A stretch of 46,255 nucleotides of DNA from Nitrospirota bacterium (GTDB taxonomy: Bacteria > Nitrospirota > Thermodesulfovibrionia > Thermodesulfovibrionales > JdFR-85), in the NCBI GenBank assembly GCA_015492645.1, contig WGER01000023.1, forward strand, positions 1 to 46,255, written 5' to 3'. Of the stretch, positions 15,712-32,299 are shown piece by piece (position 1 is the first letter of the stretch; each line of letters opens with the position of its first letter). The notes below the pieces were generated by a model. It did not search any database. It saw only the letters and a program-made list of their open reading frames with translations, and was not told the origin of the DNA. The translations under genes were made by a program, and so were the position numbers.

Positions 15712-17571
15712 ATGAAAATGTCAGAAAAGAAGAGCACTGATAAGAAGGGTTTAAAGAGAAGGGATTTTCTGAAGATTGCAGGTGCAGTGGGTGTTGCTGC
15801 AGGTACAGGTGTGATACTGCCGAAGGAGAAGATATTTGCCCGTTCCAGTAAGGCGAAGCCGGGGCATCTCAGTAACGAGGTGAAGCCAGGGGAACTGGAT
15901 GACTACTATGGCTTCTGGTCAGGAGGTCACTCGGGAGAGGTGAGGATCATCGGTGTTCCATCGATGAGGGAGATAAAGAGGATCCCTGTGTTTAATATGG
16001 ATGTGGCTACTGGATGGGGAATAACCAATGAGAGCAAGAAACTCTTGAGAGGCAGGTACACGGGGGACACCCACCATGTCCACGGTTCCTACAAAAATGG
16101 CACCTATGATGGAAGATACCTCTTTGTCAATGACAAACTGAACAACAGGGTGGCAAGAATCAGGATCGACTACATGGAGGTTGATGCGATTGTGGATATT
16201 CCGAATGCACAGGGCATCCATGGGCTATTCCCCCAGAGGTATCCCAAGACGGAATGGGTTGTTGCCAATTCAGAGTTTCAGGTACCCATACCGAATGACG
16301 AGACAAATGTGACCGCCTTTAACAACCCTCAGGAGTACTATGGACTGCACACAATAATTGATGCAGAGAGGATGAGTATCGTATGTCAGGTCCTTGTGGA
16401 TGAGAACATGGACCTTGCTGCCACAGACTACAAGGGCAAGTATTCCATGGCGACCTCCTACAACTCTGAAAAGGGTGTGACCATTTCAGAGATGCTCGCC
16501 AGTGACTATGACTATCTGTTGATATTCCACTGGGGCAGGATCAAGGAGGCCCTCAAGAAGGGCAACTACAAGTGGATCAGTGGTGTAAAGGTGATTGATG
16601 GAAGAAAGGGTCATTCTGACATAGTGCTCAGGATACCGGTCCCGAAGAACCCCCACGGTGTGAATGTGTCACCCGATGGCAAGTACGCGATCTGTTCGGG
16701 CAAGGTATCACCCACCTGCACTGTGGTGGACCTCGATCTGGTGGACCTCGCCTTTGAGGGGAAGATAAAACCAGAGGAGTGTATTGTTGCACAGCCTGAG
16801 ATCGGACTTGGACCGCTTCACACCACCTTTGATGGCAGGGGCAATGCCTACACCTCTGTATTCATAGACAGCACAAATGTGAAGTGGAACATCCAGAAGG
16901 CGATTGAGGCAGAGAAGAAGGGGCCAGAAGAGAAGAAAAAGAAGGAGTATATAGTAGATGTGCTTGATATACACTACCAGGTCGGCCACATCATGGCATC
17001 GATGGCAGAGACGAAGGAGGCAGACGGTAAGTGGCTCGTTTCACTGAACAAGTTCTCCAAGGACAGGTTTATAAATGCAGGCCCTTATAAAATTGAAAAT
17101 GACCAGTTGGTTGACATCAGTGGTGAAAAACTGAGACTTGTCCACGACAGCCCTGCCTATGCAGAGCCCCACGACTGCATCATTGTCAGGCGCGACATCA
17201 TCGAGCCCCATGTGAAGGACAGGGTAGAGATGTTTGAACACCCTCTGGCAGTGGTGGAGAGCAGTGTTGAGAGGAAGGGGAATCATGTAATAATCAGGAT
17301 GACCTCCACCGCACCTGTTTACGGACTCCAGGAGGTGAGGCTCAAGAAGGGTGATAAGGTTACCCTGATCGTCACAAACCACGATGAGATATCTGACCTG
17401 AGTCACGGAGTGGCAATATCCAACTACAACATCAACTTCGTTATTGCCCCCTTCCAGACGAAATCGGTTACCTTCACAGCAGACAAGGCTGGGGTCTTCT
17501 GGGTCTACTGCACCAATTTCTGCCATGCCCTGCACTTAGAGATGAGAATGCGGCTGATAGTGGAGCCATAA
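15712..17571 (+). CDS. nosZ: Nitrous oxide reductase NosZ
   Basis: The periplasmic multicopper enzyme that reduces N2O to N2. A Tat signal (KRRDFLKIAG) opens the chain. CuZ-site histidines are visible in DTHHVHGS, QGIHGL, HWGR, PHGVN, GPLHT, YQVGH and EPHD. The C-terminal cupredoxin domain has the CuA motif C600-x3-C604-x3-H608-x2-M611 (CTNFCHALHLEM). The overall pattern and the gene neighbours (NosD, split NosR, bd-like and c-type cytochromes) point to the atypical clade II type, although that group often uses Sec export. At 619 residues it is full length. GGAGGAGGT abuts the ATG at 15712; the ATG at 15718 is also possible. Confidence 0.97.
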   Translation: MKMSEKKSTDKKGLKRRDFLKIAGAVGVAAGTGVILPKEKIFARSSKAKPGHLSNEVKPGELDDYYGFWSGGHSGEVRIIGVPSMREIKRIPVFNMDVATGWGITNESKKLLRGRYTGDTHHVHGSYKNGTYDGRYLFVNDKLNNRVARIRIDYMEVDAIVDIPNAQGIHGLFPQRYPKTEWVVANSEFQVPIPNDETNVTAFNNPQEYYGLHTIIDAERMSIVCQVLVDENMDLAATDYKGKYSMATSYNSEKGVTISEMLASDYDYLLIFHWGRIKEALKKGNYKWISGVKVIDGRKGHSDIVLRIPVPKNPHGVNVSPDGKYAICSGKVSPTCTVVDLDLVDLAFEGKIKPEECIVAQPEIGLGPLHTTFDGRGNAYTSVFIDSTNVKWNIQKAIEAEKKGPEEKKKKEYIVDVLDIHYQVGHIMASMAETKEADGKWLVSLNKFSKDRFINAGPYKIENDQLVDISGEKLRLVHDSPAYAEPHDCIIVRRDIIEPHVKDRVEMFEHPLAVVESSVERKGNHVIIRMTSTAPVYGLQEVRLKKGDKVTLIVTNHDEISDLSHGVAISNYNINFVIAPFQTKSVTFTADKAGVFWVYCTNFCHALHLEMRMRLIVEP

Positions 17572-18692: not shown

Positions 18693-20894
18693 ATGCCTGA
18701 GGCACTGTGGATACAGATGTGGAAGATGAAGGCCCTCCATGTGGTTGCCTTTACCTGCTTCATAGTGTTGCTCCTGTTGTTAGCGGTGCTGAAGGACCCC
18801 CTCAGCAAGCGGAGGAGGTTGCTCAACGCCGTCCGTTATGCCGCCCTTCTGATCAGTTTTGTCTATGTGGGGCTGTTCCTGAAGGCACAACCAACCACTA
18901 CCAATATAGTAATTGTGGCAAATCAATTAAAGTCACTGAAGTTTTCCATTGGACTGTACCTGATGGAGCCCTTCATCTTCCTGTCCTTTGTCTTTATCAT
19001 TGTTACGATTGTCTTCTGGGGAAGGGGTGTATTCTGTGGATGGCTCTGTCCCTATGGAGCGATGCTGGAACTGTTAAACAAACTATACAGTATGGTCTCT
19101 AAAAAGAGGTTTGAACCGGGAGAATCTGTCCACAGGAGGCTATATTATGTAAAATACACTGTCTTTCTTATTATCCTGGCTGTCTCTTTCTTCAGTTTCA
19201 TTCTATCGGAGTATCTCACAGAGGTGGAACCCTTTAGGACCTTTGTCCTGAAGATGAAGAGACAGTGGTATTTTAATCTGTATTTCCTCTTGATCAGCCT
19301 CCTTTCAGTACTCACCTACAGGGCCTTCTGCAGATACCTCTGCCCCCTCGGCGGTGCCATCGGGATACCTGCACTGCTCAGGGTAATCCCGCTGGTGAAG
19401 TTGAAGAGACATCACCTCTGCGGCACGTGCAGGATCTGTGAGAGACAGTGTCCCTATGGGGCGATAAATCGGGACGGGAGCATAAGGACTGAGGAGTGTC
19501 TGTACTGCCTGGAATGTCAGATGAACTACTGGGATAAAAGGGTATGTCCTGCCCTTAAGAAAGAACAGACCAGACCAAAGATCCTGCTCGTAGCCGCCTC
19601 TCTGCTACTGTTTGTGTGGTTGTTCCCCTCCTTCTCATGGGCAGAGACCATAGTTGTGGGTGACAGATACCCGAGCATCTCCGAGGCCCTCAGATTTGCC
19701 AGAGATGGTGATACAGTGGAGGTCCTGCCGGGCACATACAGGGAGAGGTTTATTATTGACAAGTCGATCTATCTGAAGGGGATAAACAGACCCAGAATTA
19801 TTGCTGAAAGGGGAAATATCATTGAGGTGAAGGCCACTGGAGTTGTTATCGAGGGCTTTGAATTCAGTTACACTGGCAGAGACCTCGGAAGAACAGACAC
19901 AGTGGTCTACATCCATAAGGGCTCAAAGGGGGTGGTGGTGAGAGACAACAGGATGGAGGGTGTGATGTTTGGTGTGTGGAATGTTGAAGGCTCTGACATA
20001 GCAATAGTGGGTAATGTGGTGACAGGCAGAAAGGAACTTGAGAGGGAGAGAAGGGGCAACTGTATCAATCTCACAGGCTCTACAAGGGCCAATGTAATGG
20101 ATAACAACCTTGATTACTGTCGTGACGGAATTTATATGGAGGTCTGTCATGATTCAAAGGTTACAGGGAATGAGATACGCCACTCCCGTTACTCCATTCA
20201 CACCATGTGGGTTGACAGAGGAGAGTTCAACAACAACCGCGCGATTGGCAACTTGGTCGGCCTCGCCATAATGTATACAAAGCATTCAGAGGTGAAGGGC
20301 AACATTGCTGCAGGGAATCAGACCCATGGGCTTCTCTTTCTGCAGGCGGTCAGGACCGATATATCAGACAATATAGTGATAGGAAACACCAAGGGTATCT
20401 TCCTATACAACTCCGTTCTGAATCGAGTCACTTCAAACTTGGTGATGAATAATCAGGTGGGCATCCATAACTGGGGAGGGTCTGAGGAGAACGAGATCAC
20501 AATGAACAGTTTTATCAACAACGAAATCCAGACGAAGTTTGTCTATACAAGGAACCAGTACTGGGATGGCAATTACTGGAGTGACTACTTGGGATGGGAT
20601 ATGACAGGGGATGGCATTGGAGACACACCCTATGAGTCCAACACAGTGGTTGATCATATCCTCTGGAGATACCCGATCCTGAAGGTCCTTTATGCAAGTG
20701 TGTCCCTGCAGATGCTCTGGCTGATTGATAAGCAGTTTCCTGTGCTGGATGTACCAAAGATGATAGACAGGAGACCCTATATGCAACCCTTCCATCCCGA
20801 CTGGAAGGCCCTTGCCCTCAGATATCCCTACAGGCCTGAGAGGTACTATGGAGAGATCCAGAAACTGCCTCATCTGCCAGGAGGGGTGTTCTGA
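18693..20894 (+). CDS. nosD: NosR C-terminal half fused to NosD
   Basis: A 733-residue fusion. Residues about 1-290 are the membrane/ferredoxin half of NosR (NapH-like), with several helices, CGWLCPYG (from about residue 114), CRYLCPLGG and cytoplasmic clusters of CGTCRICERQCP and CLYCLECQ type. A helix at about 296-316 (ILLVAASLLLFVWLF) leads the chain back across the membrane. From about residue 318 follows NosD, a beta-helix of carbohydrate-binding/CASH repeats (ETIVVGDRYPSISEAL onward) needed for CuZ assembly. Usually NosD is a separate secreted protein; here the NosR helix replaces its signal peptide. It overlaps nosF by one base. Confidence 0.92.
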   Translation: MPEALWIQMWKMKALHVVAFTCFIVLLLLLAVLKDPLSKRRRLLNAVRYAALLISFVYVGLFLKAQPTTTNIVIVANQLKSLKFSIGLYLMEPFIFLSFVFIIVTIVFWGRGVFCGWLCPYGAMLELLNKLYSMVSKKRFEPGESVHRRLYYVKYTVFLIILAVSFFSFILSEYLTEVEPFRTFVLKMKRQWYFNLYFLLISLLSVLTYRAFCRYLCPLGGAIGIPALLRVIPLVKLKRHHLCGTCRICERQCPYGAINRDGSIRTEECLYCLECQMNYWDKRVCPALKKEQTRPKILLVAASLLLFVWLFPSFSWAETIVVGDRYPSISEALRFARDGDTVEVLPGTYRERFIIDKSIYLKGINRPRIIAERGNIIEVKATGVVIEGFEFSYTGRDLGRTDTVVYIHKGSKGVVVRDNRMEGVMFGVWNVEGSDIAIVGNVVTGRKELERERRGNCINLTGSTRANVMDNNLDYCRDGIYMEVCHDSKVTGNEIRHSRYSIHTMWVDRGEFNNNRAIGNLVGLAIMYTKHSEVKGNIAAGNQTHGLLFLQAVRTDISDNIVIGNTKGIFLYNSVLNRVTSNLVMNNQVGIHNWGGSEENEITMNSFINNEIQTKFVYTRNQYWDGNYWSDYLGWDMTGDGIGDTPYESNTVVDHILWRYPILKVLYASVSLQMLWLIDKQFPVLDVPKMIDRRPYMQPFHPDWKALALRYPYRPERYYGEIQKLPHLPGGVF

Positions 20895-22617: not shown

Positions 22618-24060
22618 ATGAGAAGACTTTTGGTTGCCCTTTTGTTACTCTTTCCTCTCCTTGCTCATGCCTATGAGGCAGGAGAGGTCAGAGGTGCTGC
22701 CACAGTGAAGGGTGTGGTCATCTACTCAGGGAGACCACCCCAGGATGAAAGAATAATAGTTGACAGGGACAGGGGGGTCTGTGGTTCAAGTCAATCTGCT
22801 GGAAAGTATCTACTGAAGGGGAAGAGGGTACAGAATGTGGTGGTATGGCTTGAAGGAGTGGAGAGGGGGAAACCAGTCCCTGAGTCTGAGGTGAAACTCA
22901 CCATCTCTACCTGCAGGGTGAGGCCACTTGTTAGTGTGGGATTTGTCGGAGGAGTATACAGAATAGTAAACGAGGACCCGATCCTTCATACTGTACAGTT
23001 GAAACTCGGCCTTGAGTATCACAAACTCGTCTCTGATAGACCCCTTGATAAAGGTGTAACCATCTACAACCTGGCACTGCCGAGGAAGGGGATGGAGATA
23101 ACCAGGCCGATAAAGAGATTCCACAGGCTTACAGAGAAGACCGGCATTGTGAGGGTCACCTCTAATACCCATCCATGGATGAGGGCCTATATCTTCGTCT
23201 TTGACCATCCCTATGCCACAGTGACAAACCCCGACGGAGAGTTCGTGATAGGAGATATCCCCCCCGGGGATTACATCTTGAAAGTATGGCATGAAGGATT
23301 CGGCACAAAGGAGATCAGGGTGAACCTCCGTGCCTCAGAAACGGAAGAACTGGAGATTGACCTTGGTGGGGGTACACCCTCAGCAGGATTTCCCGAGGTG
23401 AGATTCGATTTTGGCAGGATCGAGTTGGGCGAGAGGGTCTCGCACGATTTCAGGGTCTTAAATGAAGGTGACGGGATGCTCAGGATCGTGGATCTGATAC
23501 CTGCTTGAAGGCTCTGTACCTCTGTCTCTGCCAGTTCGGCAGAGATACCTCCTGGTGGAGAGGCCCTGGTTACCATCACCTATGACTCAGGGGCTGACCC
23601 TGTGGTGAAGCCCGGAGAGAGGGTCCTCAAGAGTGTGGAGGTCTGGACAAATGACCCGGAAAGGAGGATGGTGATTCTCGCCCTTCAGGGTGAGGTGGCC
23701 TCTAAGGAAGAGGCCCGGTCTGGGGATGACAGAGTGGCCGAGGTGGTCTTCAAAGAAACCACCTTCGACTTCGGTACAGTGGACGAAGGTACAGAAGTCA
23801 GACACAGGTTCTTCTTCACCAACAGAGGAGATGCCCCTTTGAAGATCGAAGAGATAGTGTCTTCCTGAAAGAGGGCAACCAGGGCCTCTGCCAGTTCGGC
23901 AGAGATACCTCCTGGTGGGGATGGTTATATTGAGGTGGTGGTGGACACCAGAGGGATGGAAGGCAGGATCAGCAAGTCCTTTGAAGTAAAAACGAACGAT
24001 CCAGTAAATGGTTCAGTGATACTCACAGTCTATGGAGTGGTGAAAGGAGATGCTCAGTAG
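22618..24060 (+). CDS. Candidate selenoprotein: cupredoxin-like plus two DUF1573 domains, TGA codons 297 and 417
   Basis: One frame of 480 codons with two internal TGA codons (23506-23508 and 23866-23868) and a final TAG. A Sec signal peptide (ending AHA) leads a domain shared with the 25593 gene (CGSSQ, NLALPRK, HPWMRAY, IPPGDY, WHEGF). Then come two DUF1573 domains (VRFDFGRIELGERV and TTFDFGTVDEGTEV). The family has an SCGCT motif after the first half of each domain; here the first Cys is TGA (IPA-U-RLCT and VSS-U-KRAT). Typical DUF1573 sequence continues in frame after both (EIPPGG, WTNDP, KTNDP). Each TGA is followed by the same hairpin. The frame overlaps the next ATG by 11 nt. A gene caller would stop at 23508. 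Confidence 0.8.
23523..23547 (+). promoter_or_regulatory. SECIS-like hairpin 1
   Basis: A 10-bp stem (23523-23532 with 23538-23547, one G-U pair) has apical loop AGTTC with G at loop position 2. The core TCTGCC-AGTTC-GGCAGA starts 18 nt after the TGA at 23506-23508. This matches the general bacterial SECIS layout of an apical-loop G about 16-37 nt downstream of UGA. Confidence 0.7.
23886..23904 (+). promoter_or_regulatory. SECIS-like hairpin 2
   Basis: The same core TCTGCC-AGTTC-GGCAGA (23887-23903), extended by one C-G pair, starts 18 nt after the TGA at 23866-23868. Sequence identity with hairpin 1 runs about 32 nt, well above the similarity of the rest of the two domains. Confidence 0.7.
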
Positions 24061-25051
24061 AAGAGATTTTATAAGGACGGTCCTTATCTGTGGTGGAGCA
24101 ATTTTCCTCAAAAGCGGTGTTGTCCTCTCCTCCGGATTAAAGGACACAGAGGTGAAGGCGGTGACACTGGACATCACTTATACGACAGAGATACTGAGAC
24201 CTCCAAAGAGGAGAGGAGTTCAGATATGGATACCCCTGCCGCGGACAGACCTTGAACAGGAAGTCTCATCCCTGAAAGTGACCTCTCCTTATGAGTACAG
24301 GATTGGAGAGGCTGGTCCAAACAGGATGCTCCATCTGAAGACGGATGAAGTGAAAGAGGGAGACAGGATCACTATGGTGTTCAGATTGAAGAGAGTGGCC
24401 TCTGGGACCACTATTGAACCTGAGGAGGACCCACAGCAGCACCTCAGGCCCTCAGAGTGGGAGAGATGGGACAGGACTGTGGCCGAATTTGTAGAGAGGG
24501 TTGCTGGTAAGGAGAAGGACCCCCTGAAGGTTGGCAGACTCCTCTATGACGCGATTATCGACAGGAGTAAATACCTCCATGAGGTCTGTGGCAGAGGGGT
24601 TGCCACCCTGTTTCTTGAAGAAAAGGTGGGCAGATGTGATGAGTTCCATGCACTGTTCAGGAGTGCACTTATGTACAGGGGTATACCTGCCAGGTGGGAG
24701 CAGGGTATAGCCTTCCCCTACCCGTCTGAGATAAAAAAGAGGGGTGAGTTTGAAGCGGACTGTATTAACGCCCATAGTTGGGTGAGGTTCTACTTAGGTG
24801 ATGGGAGGTGGTTCCCTGTGGACCTGTCCGAGGCGAAGAGAAGGCCAGACCTTAGAGAATACTACTTTGGGAGACTTGTCCCTAACCGTATGAAGGTCTC
24901 AAGTGGCAGAGGGTTGGTGCTCAACCCGCCACAGAAAGGGATAATAAACACCTTTGCCTATACCTATATAGAGGCAGGAGGGCTACCGGTCATCTATGGA
25001 CACAACTACAGAAATACCATTAATTACAAACTGCTGGCCATGGAGGTATAG
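24050..25051 (+). CDS. Exported transglutaminase-like protein
   Basis: A 333-residue protein with a Tat-like start (SRRDFIRT and a hydrophobic stretch). It has a transglutaminase/protease-like core: Cys in VGRCDEFHALF, His in INAHSWVRFY and Asp in FPVDLSEA form the expected catalytic triad. The substrate is unknown. The ATG lies inside the end of the upstream selenoprotein frame, and a thioredoxin-like gene follows at once. This links it to a periplasmic maturation or thiol-redox role in the nos cluster, by context only. Confidence 0.85.
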   Translation: MLSRRDFIRTVLICGGAIFLKSGVVLSSGLKDTEVKAVTLDITYTTEILRPPKRRGVQIWIPLPRTDLEQEVSSLKVTSPYEYRIGEAGPNRMLHLKTDEVKEGDRITMVFRLKRVASGTTIEPEEDPQQHLRPSEWERWDRTVAEFVERVAGKEKDPLKVGRLLYDAIIDRSKYLHEVCGRGVATLFLEEKVGRCDEFHALFRSALMYRGIPARWEQGIAFPYPSEIKKRGEFEADCINAHSWVRFYLGDGRWFPVDLSEAKRRPDLREYYFGRLVPNRMKVSSGRGLVLNPPQKGIINTFAYTYIEAGGLPVIYGHNYRNTINYKLLAMEV

Positions 25052-25052
25052 G

Positions 25053-25550
25053 ATGCTGAGATGGTTAACAATGGTGCTATGGCTTTTTGTGATCATTGTT
25101 CCTGAGGGCCATGCCTCTGAGAAATCTCCACTGGTGGGCAGGCCTGTGCCAACCTTCAAATTACCTGATGAAAATAACAAACTGGTGGATTTCGGGACCC
25201 TGATAGACAGGCCCACCATCATCTATTTTACGCATAATTCATGTCATTACTGCACCCAGATTATAGCGCTCCTGAAGAGGGCAAAGGCGAAGTTTGGAGA
25301 CAGTATAAGGGTGATAGGGATCAATGTGATGGCAGAGGACAACAAACTTGTGAGGGCCTACAAGGAGGAACTGGGGTTTATCTTCCCCATGTTTGCTGGT
25401 AACCGTTACGAAGTATTAAAGACCTACAGAATTAACTATGTACCGGTGCTGGTCTTTGTTGACGCAAAGAGGATTATAAGAAGGGTGGTGGGACACTATA
25501 TACATGAACCCGTGCTCCACAGGTATATAAGGGAGATAATCGAGAAGTAA
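25053..25550 (+). CDS. TlpA-like periplasmic thioredoxin
   Basis: A 165-residue exported thioredoxin-fold protein. The signal peptide or anchor (LTMVLWLFVIIV) is followed by LVGRPVPTFKLPDENNKLVDF, the redox motif CHYC and the cis-Pro region (NYVPVLVFVD). Proteins of the TlpA/ResA class reduce Cys or Sec in the periplasm, for cytochrome c or CuA assembly. I chose the ATG at 25053 because GGAGGT is 6 nt upstream; the longer frame from 24996 lies inside the previous gene. A natural partner would be the DUF1573 selenoprotein two genes upstream. Confidence 0.88.
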   Translation: MLRWLTMVLWLFVIIVPEGHASEKSPLVGRPVPTFKLPDENNKLVDFGTLIDRPTIIYFTHNSCHYCTQIIALLKRAKAKFGDSIRVIGINVMAEDNKLVRAYKEELGFIFPMFAGNRYEVLKTYRINYVPVLVFVDAKRIIRRVVGHYIHEPVLHRYIREIIEK

Positions 25551-26435: not shown

Positions 26436-28181
26436 TTGGCTGAAAAGGATATAAAGAAGGGAGTGCTGAAGGGACTCTTAAAGTTGACCCTGATTCTGGG
26501 TGCAGGTTTTCTCCTCTTAGGGATACTGGGCAGGATACTGCCCTCTCCAACAGAGGATGGATACAGGTTCTTTCCGGTGATAGGTAGCAGGGTATGGGTC
26601 TGGATAGTTGCCCAGTTACACCTGAACTTTGCAGCCTTTGTCCTCGGTGTTCCCATATTTGCAGTGACCATGGAGTTCCTTGGCTGGAGAAGAAAAGATG
26701 AAAGGCTCGACAGGATAGCCTATGACTTCACCAAACTCTTCACCCTTGCCTACACACTTACTGCTGTTATGGGAGCGGTATTGATGGTGAGTCTGCCCAT
26801 ACTCTACCCGAAGTTCATTCAACATCTGATGAAGGTCCTCGGACCTACATGGTGGGCCTATATACTCTTTATGTACGGTGAGGTGTTTGTCTGTTATTAC
26901 TACTTCTACTCATGGCACAGGATGAAGGACAGGAAGGGATTGCATGTGCTTCTTGGTGTACTCCTCAATGTGATGGGGACGATACTGTTGCTCATAACCA
27001 GTTCCTGGGTTGGTTACATGACCACACCAGCAGGGGTGACAGAAACAGGTGAACTGGTGAACCGTTGGCAGGCGATAAAGACCTACATGTGGATCCCCCT
27101 GTCACTGCACAGACTTGTTGCCAATGTGGTTTTTGGTGCAGGTATTGCCGCAGCCTATGCCGCCTTCAGGTTCATCACAGCAACAACCCCGGAAGAGAAG
27201 GCCTATTATGACTGGATGGGCTACACCTCGGCCATGATAGCCATCGGGTTCTCCCTGATACTGCCAGGGATTGGTTACCTCCTTGGGGTCGAGATATACG
27301 CCTTTAATGAGCAGATGGGGATTCAGTTGATGGGAGGCTTCTATGCATGGCTCTGGGTGATGCAGGCGATTCTCATAGGAGCGATACTGTTCTTTATAAA
27401 CTACTACCTCTGGATCTCACTTAACAAGATGCCGGGTGGGGAGAGGTATTTCAGGTATGTGAAGTTCCTGTTTATCGTTGTCCTGCTCGGATATGCCATA
27501 TGGTTGACACCCCACAGTGTTGCATTGAGTCTTGAGGAGGCGAGACGTATAGGCTCCTATCATCCTGTGTTGGGGAAACTGGGTGTTATGGCCTCGAAGA
27601 ACACCGCCGTAATAATCTCCTACATGGCGACCTTCATCAGTTTTGCCATCTTCAGGATGAGCAACAAGGAGCCCACCGTCTCATGGGCCTCAATGGGTAA
27701 GTGGTTGAGGGTATTGATAATAGTGGCATCCACAGGGGTTGTCCTCTTTCTGGGTGTATACAGTTACATGGTCCCTTCAGTTACAAGGGTGAAGGTGCTG
27801 TCACCCATTCAGTTCGGTGTCTTCCTGCTGTCCATTCTTGCCCTTTATATACTGGACAGCAGGATGTTCAAAGGGGCAAGGGTGATAGGAGAGCCGAGGT
27901 GGGGACAGATGCCAGAAAGGTCCCAGTATGCCCTTATAGGGATCACTGTCACCTTCACCTGGTTGATGGGAATGATGGGTTATATGCGTTCAGGTGGCAG
28001 ACAGTACTGGCATGTCTACGGGATACTGAAGGACACCAGTCCAGATGCCTACCTGCCTGCCCATGGTGTCGCCTCAGTAATAGTAACACTCGTAACCCTT
28101 CTGTTCTTCCTGATGGTCGCCTTCGTCTTCTGGAGTGTGATGAAACTTGAGATGATCGCAGAACAGAGGAGGGCAAAATGA
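26436..28181 (+). CDS. Cytochrome bd-like oxidase subunit I homologue
   Basis: A 581-residue polytopic membrane protein with about 14 hydrophobic segments. It resembles the divergent bd-like quinol oxidases known from Nitrospira, with conserved His in QLHLNFAAFVLGVP, SLHRLVANVVFG and LTPHSVALS. No subunit II gene is adjacent; three cytochrome c genes follow instead. This suggests quinol oxidation coupled to c-type cytochromes, or reduction of O2 or NO. The sequence alone does not decide. The start is TTG at 26436 after AAGGAGGT. The stop overlaps the next ATG (ATGA). Confidence 0.8.
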   Translation: MAEKDIKKGVLKGLLKLTLILGAGFLLLGILGRILPSPTEDGYRFFPVIGSRVWVWIVAQLHLNFAAFVLGVPIFAVTMEFLGWRRKDERLDRIAYDFTKLFTLAYTLTAVMGAVLMVSLPILYPKFIQHLMKVLGPTWWAYILFMYGEVFVCYYYFYSWHRMKDRKGLHVLLGVLLNVMGTILLLITSSWVGYMTTPAGVTETGELVNRWQAIKTYMWIPLSLHRLVANVVFGAGIAAAYAAFRFITATTPEEKAYYDWMGYTSAMIAIGFSLILPGIGYLLGVEIYAFNEQMGIQLMGGFYAWLWVMQAILIGAILFFINYYLWISLNKMPGGERYFRYVKFLFIVVLLGYAIWLTPHSVALSLEEARRIGSYHPVLGKLGVMASKNTAVIISYMATFISFAIFRMSNKEPTVSWASMGKWLRVLIIVASTGVVLFLGVYSYMVPSVTRVKVLSPIQFGVFLLSILALYILDSRMFKGARVIGEPRWGQMPERSQYALIGITVTFTWLMGMMGYMRSGGRQYWHVYGILKDTSPDAYLPAHGVASVIVTLVTLLFFLMVAFVFWSVMKLEMIAEQRRAK

Positions 28182-28693
28182 AGACTGGTGTGATCAAACT
28201 GCTTATAGTTGTACTTGGGATAAACATCTTCTTTGCATATATAGGGCTGTATTTTCTCCCTCAATCTGAGTCAAGGCCTCCAAAGGAATTAAAACTGGCC
28301 CCCGGTGTTTCACAGGATGATCTGGTCTTACTCGGTGAGGAGATTGTATTCGGTAAGGGGCAGTGCATGGTATGTCACCCTATGAAGCCAGAGACAGGCA
28401 TGAGGGCACCTGCCATAGCAACCATTGGGGCGGATATGAAGAAGGAGGCAGAGAAGAGAGGGATCCCCTACGAGGAGTATCTCTTTATAGCACTTGTGGC
28501 ACCTTCAAAATACGTGGCTGAGGGCTATGACGATATCATGCCACCGGTGCATAAACCTCCTACTTCGCTGAATGAGGGCGAGTTGATAGCAGTAGCAGCC
28601 TACCTGCAGAGCAGGGGTGGCACAGTGACAGTGAAGTATCCTGATTCTCTGGAACAACTCAGGGAAATCATCCGTAGAGAAGGAGGTTCATAA
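28178..28693 (+). CDS. Membrane-anchored monoheme cytochrome c
   Basis: A 171-residue protein with an N-terminal anchor helix (IKLLIVVLGINIFFAYIGLYFL) and one heme site, CMVCHPM. A Met-Pro (DIMPP) near residue 128 is a plausible sixth-ligand region. It is translationally coupled to the bd-like gene, so it is probably a fixed subunit or direct redox partner of that protein. Confidence 0.88.
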   Translation: MKTGVIKLLIVVLGINIFFAYIGLYFLPQSESRPPKELKLAPGVSQDDLVLLGEEIVFGKGQCMVCHPMKPETGMRAPAIATIGADMKKEAEKRGIPYEEYLFIALVAPSKYVAEGYDDIMPPVHKPPTSLNEGELIAVAAYLQSRGGTVTVKYPDSLEQLREIIRREGGS

Positions 28694-29499
28694 TGACAGA
28701 GATCTACATAGGGGTATTTCTGCTCGGCATCCTGATATCCCTTCTCGCATGGTATAAGAGGTCTCCCTTTTTCAACTTCATAGGGATCCAGATCGCAGTT
28801 TACGGCTTTCTGAAGGGATTGGCCCTGTTTATACCACCCCTGCCATCGCAGGTGGTGGTGATGTATATGGCCATGTCTGTATTCGCCTTCTTCATATACT
28901 TCTCCATAAGAGAGGAGACCTTCAGGGCATTTCTTGCTCCGATAAAGTCTGTGCTGGCCGACAGGGACAAGGTGCTGTACAGGGTGGTGATCGTATTTAT
29001 TGGTCTCCCCCTCCTTGCTGCCTATATCACATATGCGAAGGTGAGGCCCTCCTTTGAGCCACCGGTGTCTGCAAGGATAGTGCATCCTGAGCCGCCTACA
29101 GAGATAGACTTCAGGGGAAAGAAGATCCAGATACTCGGACTTGAGAACCCCCTCAGGAAGGATACTGACAGAATGAAGGACTATCTTGAGGAGGGGAAAA
29201 AGATATACTATCAGAACTGCTTCTTCTGCCACGGGGACGACCTTGATGGGAAGGGCCACTTTGCAGAGGCCTTCAACCCTCCACCGCTGCCATTCAGGGG
29301 TACAGATACGATAGCGCAACTGCCAGAGTCCTTTGTCTTCTGGAGGATAGCCAAGGGATGGACGGGACTACCACCTGGCTCAAGGCCATGGGATTCTGCT
29401 ATGCCTGCCTTCGAGGATATACTCACAGAGGATGAGATCTGGAAGGTGATTCTCTTTATTTATGAAGCATCTGGTAATAAACCGAGGACTTGGGAATAG
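28693..29499 (+). CDS. Membrane protein with C-terminal cytochrome c domain
   Basis: A 268-residue protein with three or four N-terminal helices (IYIGVFLLGILISLLAW, VVMYMAMSVFAFFIYF, VVIVFIGLPLLAAYI) and a periplasmic cytochrome c domain with CFFCHGDDLDGKG and a likely Met ligand in AMPAFEDIL. It overlaps the previous gene by one base and continues the bd-like/cytochrome module. Confidence 0.87.
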   Translation: MTEIYIGVFLLGILISLLAWYKRSPFFNFIGIQIAVYGFLKGLALFIPPLPSQVVVMYMAMSVFAFFIYFSIREETFRAFLAPIKSVLADRDKVLYRVVIVFIGLPLLAAYITYAKVRPSFEPPVSARIVHPEPPTEIDFRGKKIQILGLENPLRKDTDRMKDYLEEGKKIYYQNCFFCHGDDLDGKGHFAEAFNPPPLPFRGTDTIAQLPESFVFWRIAKGWTGLPPGSRPWDSAMPAFEDILTEDEIWKVILFIYEASGNKPRTWE

Positions 29500-29508
29500 G
29501 AGGTCAGA

Positions 29509-30927
29509 ATGTGGATGTTAATAGTGATTCTGTTCATCTGTATCATACCACATCACCTGTATGCCCAGGAAGAGATGGGCAAAAAGATATATGAGCAGTG
29601 GTGTGCGCAGTGCCATGGGTACGAGGGTGATGGTGAGGGATATGCGAAGGACTACACGTTTCCAAAACCGAGAGACTTCACACTCGGGGCCTACAAATTC
29701 AGGAGCACACCCACAGGGGAGCCACCCACCACTGACGACCTTGTGAGGGTTATAAAGAACGGCAATCCAGGTACGTCCATGCCTGCGTGGAAGAGGTTAA
29801 CTGATGAGGAGGCGAGGGCAGTGGCAGAGTATCTGAAGGAGTTTGCACCCGATGTATTTGAATATGAACCTGAGCCCATAGAGATAACACCACCACCCTA
29901 TTCCGAGGAACTGGTAAAGAAGGGCAAGGAACTCTTCAGGGTTGCGAAGTGTGTGGAGTGTCACGGTCTTGAAGGCAGGGGTAACGGTAAGAAGGGGTGG
30001 GAGGAGAACTTCCGTGATGACTGGGGTAACAGGATCTACCCTGCGAACTATACCTACCCATGGGAACTGAGGAATGGCTCTGATGTCAGGGATATCTACA
30101 GGACTATCACCACTGGGCTGAACGGTACACCCATGACCTCCTATCAGGATTCTCTGAGTGATGAAGAGAGATGGGCACTCGCTTACTTTATCAAGTCACT
30201 TCAACTGGACAGACGCCTGGGTATCTCTCTCACCATACGGAAGACAGAGGCGATCCCTCAGTCACTGGAGGACCCCCTCTGGGATACCCTGGAATACCTG
30301 GACCTGCCCATGGGAGGACAGGTGATATTTGAACCGAGAGAGTTTACTCCAGTGATAACAAATGTGAGGGTGAGGGGAGTGTATACCCAGGACGAGGTGG
30401 GTATCCTCCTTGAATGGGTAGACAAGCGGCCGAACAGGGGTGACGATGGGCTCCCACCGGATGGAATAAGAATTCAGTTCCCCCAAAAACTGACCGAGAC
30501 AGGTAATCCCTATTTCTTTATGGGTGACAGGAGACATCCAGTAAATCTCTGGTGGTGGAAGGCATCTACCTCACAGGCAAAGGAATATGTGGCGAAGGGT
30601 CCGGGCAACATCTTTGAGCAAGACAACCAGGATGTAAGGGCCGTGGGTGAATATAAGGAGGGTCTTTACAGGGTCCTCTTTATAAGAAGACTCTCCACAG
30701 AAGACACTGAGGACATCGCCTTCATCCCTGGAAGGTTTATACCCTTTGCTGTACAGGCCTTTGATGGAAGAGAGGAAGAAGAGGGATTGAAGTGTGCACT
30801 GTCGGCATGGTACTATCTCATGCTGGAACCACAGACACCTCTCAAGGTCTACATACTGCCACCGGTAGTAGGGCTACTGGTCTTCGGGATAGGTTATGGA
30901 CTGCACAGGAAGATGAGAGGAGAATAA
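29509..30927 (+). CDS. Diheme cytochrome c with NxrC/ethylbenzene-dehydrogenase-type heme domain
   Basis: A 472-residue exported protein. A signal peptide (ending LYA) is followed by two cytochrome c domains (CAQCHGYEGDGEG and CVECHGLEGRGNG) and then a domain of about 200 residues resembling the heme-b-binding gamma subunits of ethylbenzene dehydrogenase and NxrC (GGQVIFEPREFTPVITNVRVRGVYTQ, LLEWVDKR). A C-terminal helix anchors it. The N-terminal half is a paralogue of the 14890 diheme cytochrome. It probably collects electrons from the bd-like module and passes them to periplasmic reductases. GGAGGT precedes the ATG. Confidence 0.85.
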   Translation: MWMLIVILFICIIPHHLYAQEEMGKKIYEQWCAQCHGYEGDGEGYAKDYTFPKPRDFTLGAYKFRSTPTGEPPTTDDLVRVIKNGNPGTSMPAWKRLTDEEARAVAEYLKEFAPDVFEYEPEPIEITPPPYSEELVKKGKELFRVAKCVECHGLEGRGNGKKGWEENFRDDWGNRIYPANYTYPWELRNGSDVRDIYRTITTGLNGTPMTSYQDSLSDEERWALAYFIKSLQLDRRLGISLTIRKTEAIPQSLEDPLWDTLEYLDLPMGGQVIFEPREFTPVITNVRVRGVYTQDEVGILLEWVDKRPNRGDDGLPPDGIRIQFPQKLTETGNPYFFMGDRRHPVNLWWWKASTSQAKEYVAKGPGNIFEQDNQDVRAVGEYKEGLYRVLFIRRLSTEDTEDIAFIPGRFIPFAVQAFDGREEEEGLKCALSAWYYLMLEPQTPLKVYILPPVVGLLVFGIGYGLHRKMRGE

Positions 30928-31057: not shown

Positions 31058-31552
31058 ATGTTTGCTCCTGCGGGTAGATACTACAGTCTGATCATTTGTA
31101 TTATGATTCTTTCTCTTCTGGGTTGTGAGAAAGAAACAGAGGTGAAGCCACCACCTGTTGAGTTTACAGATACAGACAGTTGCGCCCTCTGTGGGATGTT
31201 GATAATGGAGTATCCAGGACCGAAGGCCCAGATACACTACAGAAACGGGCGAGTGGACAGATTCTGCAGTGTCCAGGAAATGATGAGTTTTTACTTACAA
31301 CCTGACCGGCCGAAGGATATAGTGGCTATTTATGTAACCGATATGAAGAGGGCTGACTGGAAAAGGCCCAGGAATGCATGGATAGATGCAGAAGGGGCAT
31401 TCTATGTCTATGGTGCGAGTATTTCAGGGGCAATGGGAAACGAACTCGTCCCTTTCTCTGATAGGCCATCTGCAGAGGCATTCATAGCCAGATATGGAGG
31501 CAAGGTTATACGTTTCCACGAGATAAACATGCAGATGCTGGAGCCACGATGA
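31058..31552 (+). CDS. nosL: NosL-family copper lipoprotein 1
   Basis: A 164-residue lipoprotein (lipobox LLGC) of the NosL family, which delivers Cu(I) for NosZ. The metal motif DSCALCGM and the conserved FCSVQEMM region are present, followed by the NosL fold (AWIDAEGAFYVYGASISGAMGNELVPFSD). GAGAGGAA precedes the ATG. The stop overlaps the next start. Confidence 0.92.
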   Translation: MFAPAGRYYSLIICIMILSLLGCEKETEVKPPPVEFTDTDSCALCGMLIMEYPGPKAQIHYRNGRVDRFCSVQEMMSFYLQPDRPKDIVAIYVTDMKRADWKRPRNAWIDAEGAFYVYGASISGAMGNELVPFSDRPSAEAFIARYGGKVIRFHEINMQMLEPR

Positions 31553-31830
31553 GAGTTACAGGAATCCTTATCGTGGTACTTGCATTGACTGCCCTTGTTT
31601 TATGTCTAATAGATCCTCTGATGTCGGATATCCCTGAAGGAGTGAAGGGGTTCCAGAGGCTTACAGCAGGATTTGGTCTCGGTTCTGCAGTCAATGCTCG
31701 CTGGGGATACAATTATTTTGACCCGAGGCTGGAGAGGATTGAGGAGACGAACCTATTTCCCATTCCCGGTGGTTATCCCTATAACCCTGCAAGGGGGTCA
31801 TCTCTTAGTGAATTCACCGAGGTATATTAG
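31549..31830 (+). CDS. Small membrane-anchored protein of unknown function
   Basis: A 93-residue protein with one N-terminal helix (VTGILIVVLALTALVLCLI) and a Pro/Gly-rich periplasmic tail (FDPRLERIEETNLFPIPGGYPYNPARG). I do not recognise a domain. It sits between two NosL genes and overlaps both, so it most likely belongs to the same copper-delivery machinery. Confidence 0.7.
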   Translation: MRVTGILIVVLALTALVLCLIDPLMSDIPEGVKGFQRLTAGFGLGSAVNARWGYNYFDPRLERIEETNLFPIPGGYPYNPARGSSLSEFTEVY

Positions 31831-32299
31831 TATTTTTATACTGTTGCTCTTCTTGGGGTGTCAGGCGGGTGAAGATACATTCCCCATAAAGCATCCTATT
31901 GAAAATCCTCCGAGGTTTACCGAGCATAAGAGGTGTGACAACTGCGGGATGGACCGCAACAGATTTGCCAGGACCAGGTATGTATTTGATACTGATAAGG
32001 GGAGGTTCTACACATGCTCCATAGCCTGTCTGGTGATACTTGTCAAGAAAAAGTCAGTAAAACCGCGGAACATAAAGGTTGCAGTGTATCTTAATCCAAC
32101 AGAGATGATCGATGCAGAGAAGGCCCACTATGTGATAGGCTCAAAGGCAAAGGGTACAATGACAAGGATAAGCAAGATAGCATTTTCAGATAGAGAGAGT
32201 GCCGAGAGGTTTATTCAGAGGTATGGTGGCAGACTGGCCACCTTTCAGGAGGCATATAAGGAGGCAGAAGAAGAGTTGATGAAGGAGTTAAAACAATGA
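31808..32299 (+). CDS. NosL-family lipoprotein 2
   Basis: About 163 residues from a GTG at 31808 after AAGGGGGT. The lipobox is LFLGC, the motif KRCDNCGMDR replaces DSCALCGM, and the C-terminal half aligns with nosL 1 (DAEKAHYVIGSKAKGTM, AFSDRESAERFIQRYGG). It is a diverged second NosL, perhaps handing copper to the adjacent ABC system. It overlaps its neighbours at both ends. Confidence 0.88.
   Translation: MNSPRYISIFILLLFLGCQAGEDTFPIKHPIENPPRFTEHKRCDNCGMDRNRFARTRYVFDTDKGRFYTCSIACLVILVKKKSVKPRNIKVAVYLNPTEMIDAEKAHYVIGSKAKGTMTRISKIAFSDRESAERFIQRYGGRLATFQEAYKEAEEELMKELKQ

Follow-up and report, generated by a model that had tools for sequence, protein, structure and literature searches.

The OS_HP2 / DUF1573 family (PF07610) is tabulated as a selenoprotein family with the motif UxC in PMC2398784; the motif is given as UGC in the selenoprotein tables of PMC9312934 and PMC13188914, the latter a 2026 table that enters the family with one Sec. 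For bacterial SECIS (bSECIS) elements, the consensus as excerpted from PMC13188914 comprises a loop of 3–9 nt, a stem of 4–16 bp, a G within the first two loop positions, a UGA-to-loop distance of 16–37 nt and a minimum free energy (MFE) of ≤ −7.5 kcal/mol. For nitrous-oxide reductase (NosZ), an excerpt of PMC7558416 has SCO/SenC and PCuAC serving the CuA site and NosL serving CuZ, and TlpA reducing CuA cysteines in oxidase.

Here we describe a gene with two in-frame UGAs, each followed by a hairpin, from a window of 46,255 nucleotides, by which we mean the whole stretch of Nitrospirota DNA that was analysed. Its ATG-to-TAG frame is open once the two UGAs count as residues, and its predicted product is 480 aa long with both decoded as Sec. 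The gene and its parts are as follows.

22618–24060, + strand: predicted selenoprotein gene (ATG at 22618, in-frame UGAs at 23506 and 23866, TAG at 24058–24060)
23143–23364, + strand: carboxypeptidase regulatory-like domain (PF13620), residues 176–249, N-terminal to the DUF1573 domains
23392–23697, + strand: DUF1573 / OS_HP2 domain 1, motif PA-U-R-L-C-T (UxxC)
23506–23508, + strand: UGA 1, predicted Sec 297, same column in 6/6 two-UGA genomes
23752–24045, + strand: DUF1573 / OS_HP2 domain 2, motif SS-U-K-R-A-T (lone Sec)
23866–23868, + strand: UGA 2, predicted Sec 417, same column in 6/6 two-UGA genomes

A two-domain protein encoded across two UGAs

The window protein scores 140.7 bits over two stretches against NF041425 (OS_HP2_seleno; cut-off 100), with 77.6 and 58.5 bits for the single domains, each under that cut-off. 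Together with the UGA at the Cys position, this score places it in the OS_HP2 / DUF1573 family. It departs from the published U-G-C (UxC), one-Sec motif in having URLC and UKRA and two Sec, and is thus a variant of the family. Of 97 aligned residues, 44 are identical in the two domains, and the Sec of domain 2 is not accompanied by a second Cys. In a structure model (mean pLDDT 74.9; DUF1573 parts mostly 75–91), each domain has an ASH/PapD-like Ig fold, with its Sec at a turn between two strands. A fold search matched the DUF1573 domains to ASH/PapD/HYDIN-like domains, and Cox11 was absent among the matches listed; 2qsv aligned over both domains (Z 14.5) with an rmsd of 11.9, so its domain arrangement differs from that of the window protein. 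For the two-domain part, phmmer found no match at E ≤ 0.1 among PDB sequences, and in a plasmid collection the best 20 of 40 records matched the N-terminal domain only.

Under the standard code the frame terminates at 23508, and the UGAs could be ordinary stops that leave three separate frames or a decaying gene, with the repeat around them due to chance or a recent duplication. Against this, domain homology and purifying selection span both UGAs, which are aligned and conserved in all six two-domain genomes (G000, G003, G004, G006, G011 and G013). Among these six, third-position differences (0.51–0.62) exceed second-position differences (0.23–0.24) before, between and after the UGAs, so all three parts are coding. 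The genome also encodes a complete Sec machinery, and relatives carry Cys at the same position; ordinary stops are scarcely a tenable explanation. A TAA within the relative L021, considered as an internal stop, was rejected as such and is the final stop of that locus.

The machinery comprises SelA (633 bits), SelB (386 bits) and SelD, all over cut-off, and a tRNA-Sec with anticodon UCA on contig C91; the set by which a selenoprotein-encoding genome is recognised (SelA, SelB, SelD and tRNA-Sec) is complete. Four of the five tRNA-Sec matches over cut-off were rejected as Cys or Ser tRNAs, leaving the one on C91.

Two further genes of the host genome have selenoprotein features. Its selD (L107:1400–2500, minus strand) is a selenoprotein gene as well, having a UGA followed by a short-loop hairpin, GGUCC-GUU-GGACC, whose GUU is the same as that in the DUF1573 loops. 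A second DUF1573 selenoprotein, on contig C31 of G000 (L133:7039–7749, minus strand), has a single U-G-C domain and, after it, a cytochrome-c-like region containing two CxxCH motifs.

Hairpins downstream of both UGAs

The sequence TCTGCCAGTTCGGCAGA begins at 23527 and 23887, 18 nt past each UGA, and the hairpin letters at both UGAs are TCTGCC-AGTTC-GGCAGA. The hairpins lie within a longer repeat.

23523–23547, + strand: bSECIS 1 (predicted), stem 23523–23532 / 23538–23547 (10 bp), loop AGUUC 23533–23537, UGA-to-loop 24 nt
23526–23561, + strand: 36-nt repeat copy 1, 35/36 identical to copy 2
23886–23904, + strand: bSECIS 2 (predicted), stem 23886–23892 / 23898–23904 (7 bp), loop AGUUC 23893–23897, UGA-to-loop 24 nt
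23886–23921, + strand: 36-nt repeat copy 2, one base different from copy 1

A sequence-only reading of this DNA had proposed a SECIS-like hairpin exactly 18 nt past both TGAs, with G at loop position 2 and about 32 nt of identity between the sites. The spacing and the loop hold as described (position 2 of AGTTC is G and position 3 is U at both sites), and the identity is larger, at 35 of 36 nt. With up to two mismatches allowed, the window contains the hairpin 17-mer in these two places only; shuffling gives 0.02 expected occurrences.

Both sites agree with the bSECIS consensus on every count. Both hairpins have a 5-nt loop within the 3–9 nt range and upper stems (10 and 7 bp) within 4–16 bp; the AGUUC loop has a G among its first two positions, followed by U (G or U in the consensus); the distance of 24 nt falls within 16–37 nt; and the MFE over 45 nt is −16.3 and −17.0 kcal/mol, below the −7.5 kcal/mol limit. 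RNA folding forms the hairpin at site 1 (−21.5 kcal/mol, z −2.35 versus dinucleotide shuffles) and at site 2 (−21.2 kcal/mol, z −0.95, by itself no better than the shuffles), and the two sites do not share a more extended fold. By sequence evidence, both are predicted to function as bacterial SECIS elements.

Conservation of the hairpin among relatives

The protein sequence of this segment is conserved, and the hairpin could simply follow from the motif SASSAEIPPGG and codon bias without serving any function as RNA; consistent with this, its letters are equally alike within and between genomes. When codons were resampled with the protein fixed (2,000 samples), stems as long as those observed seldom arose, in 0.2% of samples at site 1 (10 bp) and 1.1% at site 2 (7 bp). 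Several relatives did not pass this synonymous-codon null, as such stems were not rare in them.

We surveyed 61 genomes, matched the protein in 45 and took 59 DUF1573 domain rows, comprising 52 UGA domains (after removal of two duplicates) and five with Cys. An AGUUC-like loop lies 21 or 24 nt past the UGA in 52/52 UGA domains. The equal UGA-to-hairpin distance claimed for the two sites thus stands in the window and fails as a universal rule, since the second site has 21 nt instead of 24 in two of the six two-UGA genomes (L019 and L020). The elements form two classes: in that of the window (20 sequences) the stem closes a 5-nt loop, and in the single-domain U-G-C class (32 sequences) the loop closed by the stem is mostly 6 nt long. 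Six of the 52 elements (L037, L040, L056, L058, L064 and L068) have under six contiguous pairs at the site.

Compensatory pairs in the stem had been put forward as a check, and both classes contain them. The 5-nt-loop class has 95.7% of its cells paired (27–45% in slid controls), with two-sided changes that keep pairing at five of seven pairs and 11 such cells versus 2.3 on shuffling (0/500). The 6-nt-loop class is likewise 94.8% paired, with two-sided changes at five of seven pairs and 38 cells versus 13.5 (0/500). With the window excluded, 13 relatives were used to build a covariance model, which returned the two window sites as its top two matches in the 2.43-Mb genome (E = 7.8e-15 and 1.4e-13); the third match, at E = 0.27, was 12 orders of magnitude behind.

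The sequence-only reading had also named a finding that would count against it, namely relatives with Cys codons that keep the hairpin equally well. From a phylum sample of 245 genomes, 74 of them matching at 1e-8, we took 30 loci. Mean stem length at the site is 5.8 bp in the 19 UGA loci (mean −13.0 kcal/mol) versus 2.6 bp in the 11 Cys loci (mean −4.9 kcal/mol), a difference that favours SECIS function, with the Cys controls mostly from another family or paralogues rather than the nearest orthologues of the window gene. Six Cys loci of family f26 have nearly the same peptide (SCGCTAALVS.. or SCGCTAAIVS..); AGTTC is still present in four of the six, and the site stem is ≤4 bp in all six. The five Cys paralogues among the 59 domain rows have no SECIS element.

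The by-product explanation is very unlikely on these data. Compensatory changes occur in two classes that differ in both loop length and amino acids (VVSSDH, MASSSH, SASSAE), the stem is lost in Cys relatives with the same SS motif, and most UGA relatives are free of stem-disrupting synonymous changes. The compensatory changes, the synonymous-codon null and the stem-less Cys relatives support the proposed selection on RNA structure beyond protein.

Origin of the likeness between the two copies

As the sequence-only reading had noted, the likeness of the two domains in DNA is concentrated at the hairpin. In codons +7 to +19 past the UGA, identical residues use the same codon in 10 of 11 cases, versus 5/15 before the UGA and 7/16 further downstream. 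That reading suggested that the element can be copied as a cassette together with its UGA, and both the 35/36 identity of the window copies and within-genome homogenisation beside the hairpin accord with such copying.

Comparison across the six two-UGA genomes upholds only the local homogenisation. The 19-nt hairpin is as alike within genomes (0.91) as between them (0.91), and family-wide constraint therefore explains its likeness. The spacer from UGA to hairpin shows no homogenisation (0.43 within versus 0.44 between; P = 0.67), and the flanks have no within-genome excess. Across about 24 nt just 3′ of the hairpin, identity is 0.72 within genomes versus 0.64 between them, the true pairing being the best of 720 permutations (P = 1/720, 0.0014); this P value is at the floor for six genomes and comes from many overlapping windows. 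Third positions alone give P = 0.008.

In the protein tree, all second domains form one clade (support 0.95), and all first domains form another with the single domain of G007 (support 0.97), so the duplication is older than the six genomes. Both UGAs are, on this sequence comparison, better explained by one old whole-domain duplication than by cassette copying, which we consider improbable given the separate clades, the unhomogenised spacer and the lack of within-genome excess in the hairpin. The homogenised stretches are the following.

23545–23568, + strand: stretch 3′ of hairpin 1, homogenised within genomes with 23905–23928; probable local conversion tract
23905–23928, + strand: stretch 3′ of hairpin 2, partner of 23545–23568

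The pattern suggests that these stretches were homogenised by local gene conversion. Their likeness might instead reflect selection, either for an RNA element that extends past the hairpin or for a protein surface common to both domains, as the stretch encodes a conserved turn (PPGG) and the third-position excess reaches P = 0.008 only. We regard selection as the rather less likely cause: codons there differ among genomes yet match internally, with no such match in the flanks, and the two sites have no extended common fold.

Gene neighbourhood and distribution

The gene sits in a nos cluster with the following neighbours.

15712–17571, + strand: nosZ, nitrous-oxide reductase (TIGR04244, 844 bits; cut-off 625)
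18693–20894, + strand: C-terminal part of NosR fused to NosD, a single reading frame of 733 aa
20894–22595, + strand: nosF and nosY, directly upstream of the predicted selenoprotein gene (ABC_tran, ABC2_membrane_2; named from context)
24050–25051, + strand: transglutaminase-like gene, directly downstream
25035–25550, + strand: ResA/TlpA-like thioredoxin
31058–32299, + strand: two NosL-type copper chaperone genes

The N-terminal part of NosR is encoded by a separate gene upstream of the NosR–NosD fusion. Between the predicted selenoprotein gene and the NosL genes, positions 26436–30927 hold a cytochrome-bd-like subunit, cytochromes c and an ethylbenzene-dehydrogenase-type haem domain, a block kept in several relatives.

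The order nosZ-R-D-F-Y-[selenoprotein]-transglutaminase-ResA is kept in relatives, including ‘Candidatus Magnetobacterium casense’ (L086). The nos-linked UxxC form occurs in 16 of 176 genomes of the order (G041 among them), and all 16 fall within the 20 NosZ genomes. The NosZ genomes without it are G018 and G110, which keep the N-terminal domain and have no DUF1573 domain, G098, where the locus is cut by a contig end, and G002, whose NosZ is low-scoring. In the nos cluster of G018 (L132), the DUF1573 domain and the transglutaminase-like and ResA-like genes are missing together; the DUF1573 domain is likewise missing in G110 (L116).

In two of the 16 genomes (L083:7382–8299 and L084:5505–6425), one ORF encodes an SCO1-SenC domain followed by a DUF1573 Sec domain, and this fusion occupies the nos-cluster place of the window's two-Sec protein. 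A lone SCO1-SenC protein holds that place in L082.

Proposed mechanism and role

We are highly confident in a reading in which SelB binds both hairpins as SECIS elements, the UGAs are read as Sec to yield one 480-aa two-Sec protein, and domain duplication and conversion shaped the repeat. The genome's SelB, carrying Sec-tRNA, would bind each hairpin, and both UGAs would be read as selenocysteine. The product would probably be exported and would carry two Ig-like domains of the OS_HP2/DUF1573 family, each bearing a Sec. Domain 2 would have arisen when a whole domain was duplicated, UGA and SECIS included. The hairpin would since have been preserved by constraint acting jointly on the protein (SASSAEI) and the RNA, and the ~24 nt immediately 3′ of the hairpin would have been homogenised by occasional local gene conversion.

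Gene neighbourhood, the SCO1 fusion and the known roles of SCO, NosL and TlpA lead us to propose, tentatively, that the protein acts in the periplasm during NosZ maturation, as a selenol/thiol redox factor or a copper relay, with the ResA-like thioredoxin, NosL and elsewhere SCO1 as putative partners. The joint absence seen in the G018 cluster hints that the DUF1573 domain and the transglutaminase-like and ResA-like proteins may work together. A more specific version, which we offer as speculation, makes the two-Sec protein a dedicated selenium-dependent NosZ maturation factor: its UxxC and lone-Sec domains, together with the ResA-like thioredoxin, would shuttle electrons or Cu(I) to NosZ, and a conversion tract some tens of bases long would keep its SECIS copies alike. 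If so, selenium supply would be tied to N2O respiration in Nitrospirota, including the magnetotactic Magnetobacterium. Should the proposed role be right, the removal of N2O by these bacteria would be limited by selenium as a nutrient.

The two-Sec architecture, with a SECIS for each UGA within 360 nt, makes tandem decoding concretely testable, and the comparison of UGA with Cys hairpins serves as a clean natural test of the constraint on SECIS elements. For DUF1573, an orphan selenoprotein domain, the nosZ cluster and the fusion to a CuA chaperone are the first specific context found in the open-licence PMC literature, where we found no paper linking nitrous oxide reductase with DUF1573, itself a weak form of absence. 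What appears to be new is the presence of two Sec in one protein, the U-x-x-C domain 1, the lone-Sec domain 2 and the tie to the nosZ cluster.

Comparison with known systems

Like the E. coli fdhF-type bSECIS, the window hairpins are stem-loops directly past the UGA, with a small apical loop opening with G then U, 24 nt from the UGA. Unlike it, they occur as two near-identical copies within one reading frame, and their AGUUC loop is common to nearly all DUF1573 UGA genes examined in the phylum. SCO1/SenC and TlpA/ResA, as they figure in CuA assembly in the excerpt of PMC7558416, share the NosZ neighbourhood, and SCO1-SenC itself is the fusion partner of the Sec domain in L083 and L084; the window's DUF1573 domains have a predicted ASH/PapD-like Ig fold, unlike the thioredoxin fold of SCO1/SenC and TlpA/ResA. 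The published OS_HP2 / DUF1573 proteins contain the same domain, with Sec replacing the first Cys of CGC, whereas the window protein has two Sec, in U-R-L-C and U-K-R-A, a fusion to a carboxypeptidase-regulatory-like domain and a place in a nos cluster.
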